From Wenzhouxiangella sp. XN201 (GTDB taxonomy: Bacteria; Pseudomonadota; Gammaproteobacteria; Xanthomonadales; Wenzhouxiangellaceae): a stretch of 64,000 bases of DNA. Both the position numbers and the translations under genes were made by a program. The DNA lies in contig NZ_JAAIVI010000020.1 of assembly GCF_011008905.1 (NCBI RefSeq), positions 372,001 to 436,000 on the forward strand, given 5' to 3'. Positions 22,804 through 27,982 of this stretch are shown here, one piece after another; position 1 is the first letter of the stretch, and each line of letters starts with the position of its first letter. The notes beneath the pieces are model-generated. The model did not search any database. It was given only the letters and a program-made list of their open reading frames with translations, and was not told the DNA's origin.

Positions 22804-24165
22804 TCAGGCGTTTTGGCGACTGCGCAGCAGCAGCGAGGCAAGAACCACCCCCACGAGCCCGATCACCGCACCCGGCATTGCCCCCATGAGCAGGGCGCAG
22901 CCCAGGCCGAGCAACAGTGCCAGTCCGCCGATGAGGATTGCCGGCACCGATTCGGAATGCGGCACCGTCTTGCGCCGCTGCGTTTCAATCCACGCCACGA
23001 TCGCGAGCACGGGCACGACCATCAGCAGGCACAGCCCCAGCCACCACAACCGACCGCTCCAGAATCCGGGATCGCCGGGTGAGCCGGCGTCGATGGGTGC
23101 GCCGATCTTCTCGCCCAGCCATGCGGCCGGGAGCTCGGCCAGTTTGTGCCACAGGTACAGCGGCATGCCGAAGGCGCCGAGGAAGGCGACGAAGCCGGCA
23201 AGACGCTCCCGGTCGAGCAGCCAGCGAGCCGGCTGCTCGAACAGCAGAACCAGGCCGACCTGCAGCCACATCACACCGATCAACGCGAGTGTGGGCGGCA
23301 GCATATTGCTGTTGCCGTCCAGATCCTGTCCGATCATGCCGACTGGATAGCCGCTGATGACCGTTGCGACCAGCCAGGCGACTCCGAGGGCGAACAGCGA
23401 CAGGCCCGTCAAGGCGCCCTTGAAACGGCCGCGCTTCCAGGCGATACCGAGCTGCTGCGGCACCAGCCACACCAGGAAGACATTGAGCCAGCCGATTCCG
23501 CCGTCGGTACCAGTCACGCGGGCGCCCAGGGTTGGCCACTGCAGGGGCGAAAAGGCACCGGCGCGCATGATATCGACCGCAGCCGACAGTACGATCAAGC
23601 CGACTACGGCGCCCAGACCAAATCGTCGGTCGGCCTCCACGCTGAGCGGCAGCAGGGCCTGGATGACCAGCAGCATGATCAGAAACCACAGGTGGATGGT
23701 GAGCGATCCGTCGAATGTGTCCAGGAAGCGGCCACCTGTGAACTGCGCGGCTATCACGAAGAGCGTCAATGCGGCCAAGTAGGTGACGGTGGGTCGGGCC
23801 AGGCGCAAGGCGCGGCCGCCCCACCACTGAAGCTGCGAATGGCCCTGGTGCATTCGGCGTGCGACACCGTCCGCGCTGACCGCTGCGGAGACGAAAACGA
23901 ACAGCGGCACGACCTGGACGGCCCAGGTCAGAAAGGCGGCAGGTATCCATTCGTGCAGCAGGTGATCGGTGGCGATGAATTCGCCGCCCTCCAGACGCGG
24001 CAGGGTGGCAAACCAGTGGCCGAAGACCACCACGAGCAGCGCCAGTGCGCGCAGCGCATCGGGGTAGAGGTCGCGTTTCTGTTTGCCGGGTTGACTCAGG
24101 GTTGATGCCGCTTGGATTGAATGTCGCGAGTATAAACTGAGTAACCCACCTGGCCCGACACACAC
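22804..24165 (-). CDS. acyltransferase family 3 (OafA/YrhL type) membrane protein
   Basis: The protein is an inner-membrane acyltransferase of the OafA/YrhL family, which transfers acetyl or other acyl groups to surface glycans or lipids. The conserved first-helix pattern KRDLYPDALRALALLVVVFGHWF, an Arg-rich motif (RLARPTVTYLAAL) and about ten further hydrophobic segments are visible. The start is uncertain: there is no ATG before the domain. GTG 24165, abutting the terminator at 24166-24202, is chosen; the reading frame continues upstream to 24339 but through a terminator and sRNA-like region. TATACT at 24131-24136 could be a promoter -10 further downstream. Confidence 0.75.
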   Translation of the reverse strand: MCVGPGGLLSLYSRHSIQAASTLSQPGKQKRDLYPDALRALALLVVVFGHWFATLPRLEGGEFIATDHLLHEWIPAAFLTWAVQVVPLFVFVSAAVSADGVARRMHQGHSQLQWWGGRALRLARPTVTYLAALTLFVIAAQFTGGRFLDTFDGSLTIHLWFLIMLLVIQALLPLSVEADRRFGLGAVVGLIVLSAAVDIMRAGAFSPLQWPTLGARVTGTDGGIGWLNVFLVWLVPQQLGIAWKRGRFKGALTGLSLFALGVAWLVATVISGYPVGMIGQDLDGNSNMLPPTLALIGVMWLQVGLVLLFEQPARWLLDRERLAGFVAFLGAFGMPLYLWHKLAELPAAWLGEKIGAPIDAGSPGDPGFWSGRLWWLGLCLLMVVPVLAIVAWIETQRRKTVPHSESVPAILIGGLALLLGLGCALLMGAMPGAVIGLVGVVLASLLLRSRQNA

Positions 24166-24202
24166 AAAAAAGAGCCCGCCAACCCCGGCAAGGGCGGCGG
24201 GC
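24166..24202 (-). terminator. Rho-independent terminator of the sRNA candidate
   Basis: On the minus strand GCCCGCC ... GGCGGGC (24202-24196 and 24180-24174) form a 7-bp G:C stem, followed by CTC and six Ts (24171-24166). This is the best terminator in the window by shape. Confidence 0.85.
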
Positions 24203-24288
24203 AAACCGGCTTGGGATGAACGGAGTTCCGTCAGGGCAGAACGGAGGGTCCGTCTGCTCTCCGTTCGGGTGAGCCTTTTGGGGGCTCG
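24166..24288 (-). ncRNA. candidate sigma-54-dependent small RNA, about 123 nt
   Basis: No protein is predicted from this stretch, yet it is bounded by an excellent sigma-54 promoter (24299-24315) and a strong terminator (24166-24202). The predicted RNA starts near 24288. It can fold a first hairpin GAGCC-loop-GGCTC (24287-24283 with 24275-24271), one or two CGGA/TCCG hairpins in the middle and the terminator stem. It lies just downstream of the GlrR-type activator gene. In enterobacteria GlmY is a sigma-54/GlrR-controlled sRNA next to glrKGR, so an analogous role is plausible, but I see no primary-sequence reason to call this GlmY. Confidence 0.6.
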
Positions 24289-24298
24289 CCCCGGTATC

Positions 24299-24315
24299 AG
24301 CAGGTCCCGTGCCAA
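24299..24315 (-). promoter_or_regulatory. sigma-54 promoter (minus strand)
   Basis: The minus strand reads TTGGCACGGGACCTGCT: GG at -24/-25 and GC at -12/-13 with exactly 10 bp between, matching TGGCAC-N5-TTGC (one deviation, C for T before TGC). Transcription start would be near 24288. Its position between glrR and the terminator argues it drives the sRNA candidate. Confidence 0.7.
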
Positions 24316-24333
24316 CGCACGATGAATCAGTTG

Positions 24334-24346
24334 AATCAATGGGTTA
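24334..24346. promoter_or_regulatory. IHF-binding site candidate
   Basis: AATCAATGGGTTA matches the IHF consensus WATCAA-N4-TTR at every position, centred roughly 50 bp upstream of the predicted sRNA start. IHF bending between enhancer and sigma-54 promoter is the usual arrangement. Confidence 0.6.
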
Positions 24347-24446
24347 TAGCGACGCGTCGGCAGGCGACACGCCGGATATGTTGCCAGCCGGCAACAGTCG
24401 GGTCGGCCACAAGCGCGCAGAGCGCCTCGATCAGGGAGTTCCGCCC

Positions 24447-24464
24447 TGTCGTCGATAGGCGACA
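24447..24464. promoter_or_regulatory. GlrR-type operator (TGTC-N10-GACA)
   Basis: TGTC GTCGATAGGC GACA is a perfect TGTC-N10-GACA palindrome, the motif reported for GlrR (QseF) at enterobacterial glmY. It lies about 160-175 bp upstream of the predicted sRNA start, near the 3' end of glrR. A second, degraded copy with the GACA half and 8 of 10 identical spacer bases is at 24352-24369. Confidence 0.6.
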
Positions 24465-24482: not shown

Positions 24483-25856
24483 TCAGTCTTTGAAATCGGC
24501 CGGCTCGAGTTCGTGTCGCTTGAGCAGGCGGTAGAACTCGGTGCGGTTGCGTCCGGCCATGCGCGCCGCTTCGCTGACGTTGCCACCGGCCATGCGCATG
24601 ATGCGTGCGAGGTAGTCGCGTTCGAAGGCGTCACGGGCCTCGGCCAGTGGCCTTACGCCGCCCGGGTCGCCCCGCAGTGCCCGCTGGACCAGACTGGCGG
24701 GAATGGGGCCCTTGCGGCACAGTACCCTGGCCTGTTCCACGACATTGGCCAGCTGTCGCACGTTGCCCGGCCAGTCGTGGCCGAGCAGCGCGCGCAGGGC
24801 TTCGCGCGAGAAGCCCTGAATGCGCCTTGATTCGGGGAGATCCTTCTGCAGGTCGGTCAGGAAGTGCTCGGCCAGCGGCACGATGTCTTCGGGCCGGTCG
24901 CGTAGCGGGGGGATGTCGAGTTGAACGACATTGAGGCGGTAGAACAGGTCTTCGCGAAACTCGCCCGCTCTGATGGCATCCTCCAGGTCGCGATGCGTGG
25001 CGGAGATGACCCGTACATCGGTATCGACTTCCCGGGTCGCTCCGACGGGGCGTACGCGCCGTTCCTGCAGGGCGCGTAGCAGCTTGGCCTGGAAGGCGGC
25101 CGGCATGTCGCCGATTTCGTCGAGAAGAAGGGTACCGCTGCGGGCCTGGACGAACAGGCCGTCCCGGTCGCTATCGGCACCGGTGAACGCGCCTTTGCGG
25201 TACCCGAACAGTTCCGATTCCAGCAGCTCGGCGGGAACCGCGGCGCAGTTGATGGCGACGAATGGGCCATCCTTGCGCGGGCTGGCGTCGTGGATTGCGC
25301 GCGCGATGATCTCCTTGCCGCTGCCGCTTTCCCCGTAGATCAGCACGCTGGCATCGCTCTCGGCTACCAGTTCCAGTTCCGAAAGCAGCGTTTCCATTGC
25401 ATGGCTGCGCGTTACGACACCCTGCCGCCAACTCGCATCGCGACTGGCGCTTGCACGGCGTCGGCCGGTGGCCTCGGCAATCGTTTCGAGCAGCTCGGTG
25501 CTGTCGAAGGGCTTTGTGAGGAAGCCGAACGCGCCTTCGCGCGTGGCGGCCACTGCGTCGGGAATCGTACCGTGCGCGGTCAGAATGATCACCGGCAAAG
25601 TCGGATCCCGCTCGCGCAGTTGCCTGAACAGCGCCATGCCGTCCATGCCCTCCATGCGCAAGTCGGTGACAACCGCATCTGGCGTCTGGCTGGCGACCCG
25701 GCCCATCGCAGATTCGCCACTGTCGGCGGTGTCGACCGTGTAGCCGCTGGATTCCAGCCTGAGGCTGATCAGGCGTAGCAAGCCCGGATCGTCGTCGACC
25801 AGGAGGATTCGCGCGGATTCACTGTGGGCATCATTGCTTGATTGCCGTTCCGGCAT
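24483..25856 (-). CDS. glrR: sigma-54-dependent response regulator, GlrR (QseF) type
   Basis: This 457-residue NtrC-family activator has a receiver domain (residues about 15-130, acidic pocket LVDDDP and phospho-acceptor Asp in VVTDLRMEGMDG), an AAA+ domain with Walker A GESGSGKE, the sigma-54-contacting loop GAFTGA, DEIGDM, and a C-terminal Fis-type helix-turn-helix (NVSEAARMAGRNRTEFYRLLKRHEL). It is the last gene of glrK-glrG-glrR; its ATG is 1 bp after the glrG stop, with GGAGG 8 nt upstream. The combined gene order and domain make-up support GlrR, which is known to activate glmY and rpoE in enterobacteria. Confidence 0.88.
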   Translation of the reverse strand: MPERQSSNDAHSESARILLVDDDPGLLRLISLRLESSGYTVDTADSGESAMGRVASQTPDAVVTDLRMEGMDGMALFRQLRERDPTLPVIILTAHGTIPDAVAATREGAFGFLTKPFDSTELLETIAEATGRRRASASRDASWRQGVVTRSHAMETLLSELELVAESDASVLIYGESGSGKEIIARAIHDASPRKDGPFVAINCAAVPAELLESELFGYRKGAFTGADSDRDGLFVQARSGTLLLDEIGDMPAAFQAKLLRALQERRVRPVGATREVDTDVRVISATHRDLEDAIRAGEFREDLFYRLNVVQLDIPPLRDRPEDIVPLAEHFLTDLQKDLPESRRIQGFSREALRALLGHDWPGNVRQLANVVEQARVLCRKGPIPASLVQRALRGDPGGVRPLAEARDAFERDYLARIMRMAGGNVSEAARMAGRNRTEFYRLLKRHELEPADFKD

Positions 25857-25857
25857 C

Positions 25858-26355
25858 TCATCGACCTCCATCACTTTCGCGTTCGTCGAGCTGGTGGTCG
25901 ATCTGGCGCAGTGCGTTGAGCTTGTCGGTCGTTTGGCGGTGCGCCTCGCGCTCGTGTTCCAGTGCCCGGGCGATCCGGTCACGCTCATGCGCCAGTGCCA
26001 GTTGAGTTTCGACCAATTGCACGATAACCGACAGCGTATCGCGTCCATTCCTGGTAACCGGGATAATCGGAGAATCCTCTTTCAGGAGGGTTCGAAGCGT
26101 CTGCAGGCCGACCTCGGTTTCTCGCAGCTCGGCAGGGCCCAGGGTTTCGAGCAGGGCCCGCTCGAGCCGGGCGGGCCAGGAATCGAGGTTGGCTACCCCG
26201 GCGTACCAGATGCCGGCGGTGGACGGGTTGACGCGCATGGCACGGTCGACGCGGTCGATGATGTGGGCGCCGTCGATGTAGTCGGGCTCGGCCGCCGACG
26301 CAGGGGCGGCGATGAGTACTAGCGCAAGAATGAGGAAGATTCGAAAGAACGTCAT
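25858..26355 (-). CDS. glrG: GlrG/QseG-like exported coiled-coil protein
   Basis: This 165-residue protein begins with a signal peptide (IFLILALVLIAAPASA) and ends in a charged coiled-coil (RIARALEHEREAHRQTTDKLNALRQIDHQLDERE). Position between glrK and glrR and the coiled-coil ending suggest the QseG/GlrG partner that modulates the kinase from the periplasmic side. Unlike enterobacterial QseG there is no lipobox Cys near the cleavage site, so it may be soluble and periplasmic. Its ATG overlaps the glrK TGA (ATGA), consistent with translational coupling. Confidence 0.65.
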   Translation of the reverse strand: MTFFRIFLILALVLIAAPASAAEPDYIDGAHIIDRVDRAMRVNPSTAGIWYAGVANLDSWPARLERALLETLGPAELRETEVGLQTLRTLLKEDSPIIPVTRNGRDTLSVIVQLVETQLALAHERDRIARALEHEREAHRQTTDKLNALRQIDHQLDERESDGGR

Positions 26356-27845
26356 GCGGCAACGTCTCCTGAAGGATTGATGGGTAATTCGATGGCAAAG
26401 ACCGTCGACCAGCCGGCGCGTTCCACGAGCTCGACTTCGCCCCGGTGGGTGCGGACCAGGTCGCGGCAGATGGCCAGCCCCAGTCCGCTGCCCGGACGAA
26501 ACTGGTTCTGCGGGCGGGTGCCGCGAAAGAAGGGTTCGAAGAGGCGGTGCCGGTCGGCCGCTGGTACGCCGGGGCCGCGATCGGCCACCAGCACGAGTGC
26601 GCGGTCACCCTGACGTTTGACCTCGACGCCGATGGTGCTGCCGGAGGGCGAAAACTTCAGTGCGTTGGACACCAGGTTGTCGATGGCAGTCGTGAGCATG
26701 TCGGGGTCAGCACTCAATCGGATGCCCGAAGACCGGCTGCGCCTGACCTTGATCCGGTGTGCCTCGATGCGAAGTCGGTGGCCCTCCAGCACGCGCTCGA
26801 CGAGTTCGTCCAGCAACACGCCCTCCTGCCTCACGGGGCCAGGCCGGGCCTGGAGCCGGTTGAAGCGCAGCAGGTTCTCGATCTGTTCCTGCAGGCGGGA
26901 GATGTTGGACTGGATGATTCCGATAACTTCCTGCTGCTGTTCACCCAGCTGGCCGAAGTTCTGGTCGGCCAGCAGGCTCGTGCCTTCTCGAATGGCGCTT
27001 AGCGGCGTCTTGAGCTCGTGCGAAACCTGGCCTACCAGTTGGCGCCGATCACGTTCGGTGCGAACCAGCCGGCGCCGCACCCACTCGAGCCGCGTCGACA
27101 GGGCTCGGAGATCGCGCGGGCTGGTCACCTGTTCGATTCGGGCGGATTCGGGCTGGGCCAGCGCCCGCATGCCGCGGTCGAGGCGGCGAATGCGTCGGTT
27201 GAGAAAGTTGGCCATCAGAAAGGCCAGCATGATCGCAATCGGGACGGTCGAGACCAGGCTCAGCAGCGAGGCGTCACGGGCTGCCTCGCCCATGGCTTCC
27301 AGCCGCTTCAATTCGCGTTGTGAATCGGTTTCGGTGGCGATCAGCAATTCGTTTGCGATCTCACGCAGACCCTCGAACAGCGCCGACAGGGACGGCGGCC
27401 ATTCGGTCTCAACCTCGGCGTTCAGCGTGCGTTGATGCAGCTCTCGGCTTCTCTGAGCAATCGTGTCGGCGAGTTCAAGCAGTGCCTCTCGCTCAATCAG
27501 CGCTGAGAAGCTTGTGAGTTCTTCGGAAAGTGCCCGGTGGCGGTCGTACAGGCTGGTTCGTGCATCCGCGTCCCGCAGAATTCTGAACTGCCGTGCCGAT
27601 CGCTCGAAGGCAATGACACGATCGCTGATCTGGCGCGCCGACTGGGTGACGGAAATCGCGCGCTCAAGTAGTTGTTCGCTCTGGTGTGTAACGCGATCGA
27701 TCTGCTGGCCGGAAACGATCAGGCCGATCAGCAGGGGAAAGGCGACCAGTGCAAAACCGGCCATCAGGAGGGTTAGAACTGATTGCGTGCGCAGACGCCG
27801 CCGCAGCCGACGCCAGCGTCCGGTTCTGCGTTGACTTCCCCCCAT
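26352..27845 (-). CDS. glrK: sensor histidine kinase, GlrK (QseE) type
   Basis: This 497-residue kinase has a first transmembrane helix (SVLTLLMAGFALVAFPLLIGLIV), a periplasmic domain of about 160 residues, a second helix (LLSLVSTVPIAIMLAFLMANFL), a HAMP-like linker, and HisKA with H-box VSHELKTPLSAIREG and ATPase motifs DNLVSNALKFS, DRGPGVP and GSGLGLAICRDLV. The H-box sequence SxxREGTSLLADQ...GQLGEQQQEV closely follows GlrK. The start at 27845 has GGAGAGA upstream. It begins the three-gene operon; its signal is unknown. Confidence 0.86.
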   Translation of the reverse strand: MGGSQRRTGRWRRLRRRLRTQSVLTLLMAGFALVAFPLLIGLIVSGQQIDRVTHQSEQLLERAISVTQSARQISDRVIAFERSARQFRILRDADARTSLYDRHRALSEELTSFSALIEREALLELADTIAQRSRELHQRTLNAEVETEWPPSLSALFEGLREIANELLIATETDSQRELKRLEAMGEAARDASLLSLVSTVPIAIMLAFLMANFLNRRIRRLDRGMRALAQPESARIEQVTSPRDLRALSTRLEWVRRRLVRTERDRRQLVGQVSHELKTPLSAIREGTSLLADQNFGQLGEQQQEVIGIIQSNISRLQEQIENLLRFNRLQARPGPVRQEGVLLDELVERVLEGHRLRIEAHRIKVRRSRSSGIRLSADPDMLTTAIDNLVSNALKFSPSGSTIGVEVKRQGDRALVLVADRGPGVPAADRHRLFEPFFRGTRPQNQFRPGSGLGLAICRDLVRTHRGEVELVERAGWSTVFAIELPINPSGDVAA

Positions 27846-27982
27846 TCTCTCCGTCTGATCAGCACGGCGGTTCAAGGGGCTGACTGGCCTCTTCAGTTGC
27901 GCTTCGCACAAGACAGTATCAGGTCATCGGCCCGGCAGCACAAGCGGTCACTTGTACTGCTTGGTTCCGGCTTTGGCGCCGC

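Follow-up and report, generated by a model that had tools for sequence, protein, structure and literature searches.

Downstream of glrR in Wenzhouxiangella sp. XN201, the 64-kb window (the whole stretch of DNA analyzed here) very probably harbors a sigma-54 transcription unit under GlrR control from which the protein gene has been lost. The case for this comes from three congeners, W. sediminis XDB06 and two further genomes, here termed G011 and G022, in which an orthologous promoter is followed by a gene for a small EF-hand-like protein (81 to 93 residues) and then by a terminator-like hairpin with a T-run. In the window, the predicted product of the unit is instead a structured noncoding RNA of about 120 nucleotides that would end near position 24166. 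The first-pass annotation had proposed a small RNA (sRNA) beside the glrK-glrG-glrR operon. A noncoding GlrR/sigma-54 unit is upheld by the sequence, but the unit looks like an mRNA deprived of its ORF and not like an old sRNA gene.

The promoter downstream of glrR and its predicted transcript

The operon encodes a histidine kinase, a small protein, and the response regulator GlrR (Table 1). Among the NCBIfam models shown for the kinase, none scores above its cut-off, and the small protein has no match in Pfam or NCBIfam. The best NCBIfam model for the regulator is that of GlrR itself (590 bits versus 413 for the next model), a score that lies below the model cut-off of 763. Upstream of glrK, a gap of about 70 bp is followed by a Sua5/YrdC gene. 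In Escherichia coli, GlrR (QseF) is a known activator of the sRNA gene glmY and of rpoE. According to PMC6075780, the QseF/GlrR consensus is TGT-N12-ACA, and glmY, which lies upstream of qseEGF, has three such sites and is assisted by IHF.

Table 1. Features of the glrK-glrG-glrR operon and of the unit downstream of it, in window coordinates
Feature	Position	Strand	Basis or remark
GlrK-type sensor histidine kinase	26352..27911	-	HisKA + HATPase_c; named from operon position
Small protein at the glrG (qseG) position	25858..26355	-	ORF; named by position only
GlrR, sigma-54 activating response regulator	24483..25880 (stretch searched; true start not fixed)	-	Response_reg + Sigma54_activat + HTH_8
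UAS1, GlrR-type site TGTCGCCTATCGACGACA	24447..24464	-	-150 from the sigma-54 element
UAS2, GlrR-type site TGTTGCCGGCTGGCAACA	24379..24396	-	-82 from the sigma-54 element
IHF-type site TAACCCATTGATT	24334..24346	-	Pattern YAA-N4-TTGATW
Sigma-54 promoter TGGCACGGGACCTGCT	24299..24314	-	GG-N10-GC geometry
Hairpin at the 5' end of the RNA (predicted to start near 24288)	24267..24291	-	Folds in all four Wenzhouxiangella
Junction and former 3' UTR; site of the lost EF-hand-like ORF	24203..24266	-	Alignment with the UTRs of W. sediminis
Intrinsic terminator	24166..24202	-	Alignable with W. sediminis and G011; folds there too

All four signals that the first-pass annotation had recognized, namely UAS1, the IHF-type site, the sigma-54 promoter, and the terminator, are confirmed in the sequence of the minus strand. 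To them can be added a second palindrome, UAS2, which was absent from that annotation and matches the TGT-N12-ACA consensus. Each motif taken singly is weak evidence: against expectations from dinucleotide shuffles of the 64-kb window, TGTC-N10-GACA has two matches (0.80 expected), TGGCAC-N5-YTGCW a single match, the sole sigma-54 core of the window (0.15 expected), and YAA-N4-TTGATW one match (0.33 expected). UAS1, the IHF-type site, and the sigma-54 promoter, however, lie within 166 bp in the correct order, and the same layout recurs in the relatives, which together make a chance arrangement unlikely. In the three congeners, the two GlrR-type sites are found at -149 to -153 and -81 to -87. 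UAS1 is identical to the corresponding site at 17 of 18 bases in G011 and at 14 of 18 in W. sediminis; the counterparts of UAS2 lie at -81 in G011, -83 in G022, and -87 in W. sediminis (the last with one end base off), with 13 to 14 of 18 bases equal. The sigma-54 element shares 15 of 16 bases with W. sediminis and 14 of 16 with G011. Conservation, which had been proposed as a check on the first-pass reading, thus extends to the promoter and the terminator; it fails for the IHF-type site, whose exact pattern is unmatched in W. sediminis, G011, and G022. On sequence features, then, the region has the makings of a GlrR/sigma-54 unit, in that GlrR is adjacent, GlrR-type sites lie at activator distance, and a sigma-54 promoter is present.

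The absence of a credible protein gene between promoter and terminator, also claimed in the first-pass annotation, holds up: from 24290 to 24203 the predicted RNA lacks any ATG, GTG, or TTG, which rules out a hidden small ORF before the terminator, and the overlapping frame that opens at a TTG at 24339 begins upstream of the predicted RNA start. A terminator scan over 2 kb gave one site versus 1.4 in shuffled sequences and is uninformative alone; it is the conservation in W. sediminis and G011 that makes the terminator credible. The 5' hairpin shows paired changes, from GAGCC/GGCTC to GAGTT/AACTC, in G022. Further along, an 8-bp stem spans the junction, with GAACGGAG (24266-24259) pairing CTCCGTTC (24225-24218). 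Without its terminator, the predicted RNA folds with z = -3.26 versus -0.98 for the joined UTRs of W. sediminis, the two sequences being of different length (112 and 88 nt) and differently bounded; among 300 fragments taken at random from the window, 5 fold at least as well, so that the signal is only moderate. Structure is also seen in the relatives (z = -2.68 for the 3' UTR plus terminator of W. sediminis and -2.43 for the 3' UTR of G011). Moreover, GGACGA pairs with TCGTCC in the 3' UTR of W. sediminis to form a 6-bp stem that resembles the 8-bp stem of the window in shape. The fold of the predicted RNA need therefore not be new, which slightly lowers the odds of a regulatory sRNA. The predicted RNA also contains three ACGGA motifs, which fall within predicted stems and repeats; a CsrA-type role is no more than a lead.

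Probable loss of the EF-hand-like reading frame

The proteins encoded behind the orthologous promoters are related, those of G011 and G022 aligning to that of W. sediminis at 50% and 48% identity, respectively, and by eye they have a signal-peptide-like start. The W. sediminis protein scores above one curated cut-off for the EF-hand in Pfam (26.4 versus 25 bits), the G022 protein falls below the cut-off (E = 5e-5), and the G011 protein has no match. The unit, counted from its sigma-54 element through the last T of the terminator run, measures 149 bp in the window and 447 bp in W. sediminis, a net difference of 298 bp. When the two units are aligned UTR by UTR, the window sequence matches first the hairpin of the W. 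sediminis 5' UTR and next, with 54 of 68 bases equal, the 3' UTR and terminator of that species, and the coding part is missing. The GlrR tree has the form (G022,(G011,(window,W. sediminis))), with supports of 0.96 and 0.95. The window is thus nested among carriers of the ORF, and on the simplest reading the ORF was lost on the window branch.

This glrR has a patchy distribution: at 70% identity or more it occurs in 4 of 30 genomes of the genus, XN201 and the three congeners, and at E <= 1e-125 in 7 of 398 genomes of the order sample. The three additional members of the order all lie outside the genus, and the 900, 900, and 384 bp behind their glrR genes contain neither a GlrR-type site nor a sigma-54 element. 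The ORF-less state is seen in the window genome only. An assembly error is an unlikely source of it, the site lying at 396 kb in a contig of 494 kb. A 461-bp region of the window matched only itself in its own genome; in the relatives, the same search matched the end of glrR and, in W. sediminis, gave a separate match in the terminator region, more distant from the first than it is in the window. Relocation of the gene within the XN201 genome was rejected: the best match to the lost protein elsewhere, in another EF-hand protein (locus L110), reaches 36% over 50 residues, and there is no close copy. Deletion between direct repeats was considered too weak an explanation, the only repeat flanking the coding sequence in W. 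sediminis being an 8-of-10 match.

The remaining unit gives no sign, in these comparisons, of relaxed constraint or of faster decay than that of W. sediminis. With G011 as the outgroup, the promoter and 5' UTR show 26 window-specific versus 34 W. sediminis-specific changes (207 sites), and with G022 as the outgroup 29 versus 39 (201 sites), counts that have modest power and that are noisy because the promoter is hardly alignable outside its motifs. The 3' UTR and terminator show four changes specific to each in 57 sites. The kept promoter could reflect a recent loss. The window and W. sediminis agree at 59.6% of the fourfold sites of glrR (n = 230), which implies a long branch.

Proposed mechanism and possible roles of the transcript

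By analogy with the QseE/QseF system of E. coli, a signal would cause GlrK to phosphorylate GlrR, which would then occupy both upstream sites; with the DNA possibly bent by IHF, the sigma-54 polymerase would initiate near 24288. In the relatives, the same promoter should give rise to an mRNA for the small EF-hand-like protein. In the window lineage, the comparison shows the frame to be gone and the 5' hairpin to be joined to the 3' UTR and terminator; GlrK-GlrR and sigma-54 should still fire the promoter to yield the noncoding RNA. A bystander transcript or a relic is more likely than a working regulator, which we regard as improbable.

An analogy may be drawn between this unit and the GlmY system (and GlmZ in some enterobacteria). 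Both combine GlrR-type sites, an IHF-type site, a sigma-54 promoter, and a neighboring glrK-glrG-glrR operon, and both have a noncoding product with a terminator, in the window a predicted one. However, the window unit lies downstream of glrR, whereas the GlmY gene is directly upstream of glrK, and the window unit is apparently derived from an mRNA and has no known link to RapZ or glmS. The covariance search suggested with the first-pass annotation gave no match to the Rfam models of GlmY and GlmZ in the window at the gathering score, nor between 24100 and 24520 at E values up to 5. Together with the EF-hand-like gene behind the same promoter in three congeners, this speaks against the kinship with GlmY that had been entertained. 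Other Rfam candidates in the region were set aside: sX13, an sRNA of the Xanthomonadaceae (15.4 bits versus a gathering score of 50), anti-hemB (21 versus 49.5), and Flavi_CRE, which is far below its gathering score. The units of W. sediminis and the two congeners are close relatives of this one, with an orthologous promoter, the same site spacing, and the same 5' hairpin, and in W. sediminis and G011 also a 3' UTR and terminator alignable with those of the window; they differ in having kept the protein ORF.

Several fates of the unit can be envisaged. It may be a dead relic that is no longer used and whose motifs persist as the loss was recent, an account that is possible but well short of an even chance. 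In favor of a relic are the single genome with this state and the GlrR-type EF-hand gene at L110, which could have rendered the local gene superfluous; yet both GlrR-type sites are intact palindromes, the promoter and terminator have changed no faster than those of W. sediminis, and the RNA part folds better than the joined UTRs of that species, if only moderately so. Rather less probable is a regulatory sRNA, possibly a functional analogue of GlmY that acts on envelope genes. The mRNA ancestry of the unit, its place on the opposite side of the operon from glmY, the lack of an Rfam match, and the stem of similar shape already present in the W. sediminis 3' UTR all weigh against this, and they have to be set against the GlmY-like control logic, the structured RNA with its terminator, and a RapZ-family gene in the XN201 genome. 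The least likely role, and a distinctly doubtful one, is that the promoter now drives the downstream acyltransferase gene with the terminator as an attenuator. That gene directly follows the unit in the window, and ahead of the conserved part its frame contains TTG and GTG while lacking ATG; but the terminator intervenes, and a TATACTC motif lies directly upstream of the gene both in the window (24090-24165, minus strand) and in four relatives (L167-L170). The EF-hand-like gene is about 700 bp from the acyltransferase gene in W. sediminis and about 2.7 kb in G011, and in two genomes with the acyltransferase (G017 and G010; L168 and L170) a search with this glrR gave no match at E <= 1e-100. 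In L167 and L168, none of the codons ATG, GTG, and TTG is found in the acyltransferase frame ahead of the conserved part, and a CTG start is possible there.

A precedent for ORF loss is provided by SgrS of Yersinia pestis, which lacks the sgrT ORF and still works (PMC4585118). In both cases, loss of the ORF would have turned a transcript with a coding part in relatives into a noncoding one; SgrS differs in having a known base-pairing function, whereas the window RNA would go back, so far as can be seen, to an ordinary mRNA. It is conceivable, though we think it improbable, that ORF loss left an RNA running from UTR to UTR, still under stress control and by now acting in trans on envelope genes. 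On this account of an sRNA at its birth, the 6-bp stem of the relative's 3' UTR would have been replaced by the 8-bp junction stem. If true, it would suggest a way for GlrR systems to shift their output from proteins (EF-hand, in other places combined with BON) to an RNA such as GlmY. With the preferred reading of a unit that lost its protein gene, the window represents a natural ORF-loss allele with its control intact, an opportunity to examine if noncoding RNAs can originate from mRNAs through loss of the coding part.

EF-hand genes and other candidate GlrR targets

In the XN201 genome, the sigma-54 core TGGCAY-N5-YTGCW has 16 matches, and since the reversed pattern has 11, most of these may be due to chance. 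Three of the 16 have a perfect TGTC-N10-GACA no more than 320 bp upstream: the window unit, L105, and L110. At L110 (1118-1429; contig C19 of XN201, 102347-102658), a second EF-hand gene is accompanied by two perfect GlrR-type sites plus a sigma-54 element; a search for it in the other 29 genomes of the genus gave nothing at E <= 1e-5. At L105, a sigma-54 element (contig C17, 589241-589256) with one perfect and one near-perfect GlrR-type site precedes a gene whose product has a signal-peptide-like start. For W. sediminis, G011, and G022, 30 of 40 sigma-54 matches were fetched, and under a site rule slightly different from that used for XN201, sites were found only at the three glrR-adjacent ones.

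Beyond the genus, a fixed rule for a site plus a sigma-54 element was applied to 48 of 80 GlrR loci, those with at least 52% identity apart from L058 and L082, in which the match lies at a contig end; W. sediminis's own locus is included, and L054 and L063 have little downstream sequence. Such units were found behind 15 of the 48, whereas 12 of the 796 control segments taken from these loci had one; the rule misses units seen by eye (e.g., L026, L028, and L034) and admits some weak ones (e.g., L049, L060, and L061). The Pfam scan covered six of the 15 (L022, which is the same as the W. sediminis unit, L023, L042, L047, L053, and L066) and identifies an EF-hand in all six; a strict EF-loop pattern occurs behind four of the 15, with L027 recognized by the loop pattern only. 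Among ten proteins picked by hand after inspection (nine encoded behind glrR, plus L110), nine have an EF-hand at E <= 0.01, and three of these also have a BON domain. By eye, the EF-hand gene of L023 and L027 is a second unit that follows a small membrane-protein-like gene. These patterns suggest that in several other proteobacteria the genes targeted behind glrR repeatedly encode EF-hand or EF-hand/BON proteins. Among the matches listed in a literature search of titles and the starts of abstracts, with few subscription papers, a link between GlrR/QseF and EF-hand or BON proteins was not found. An output of this kind points to a role in the envelope, with a calcium or metal link that can be tested.

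A further element was noticed in the Rhodocyclaceae. It is about 100 nt long (L034:2731-2834, L154:1499-1606, L155:1499-1608, and L156:1499-1606; mean column identity 93%), consists of a closed fold followed by TTCTTTTT, and sits between a GlrR-type/sigma-54 promoter and a small membrane-protein-like gene; in L155 a further gene lies between the promoter and the element. Rfam gives no match to it at the gathering score in L034, nor with E values up to 1 in L156. By blastn it is found in 4 of 150 genomes of the family, its covariance model recovers 1 of 399 genomes of the order, which is its own source, and a two-sided change is seen in 1 of 30 predicted pairs. The leader of L034 additionally contains a GC-rich hairpin (2672-2734) that is missing from L154-L156 and resembles a REP-type repeat, with matches of 76 to 80% elsewhere in three genomes of the family.
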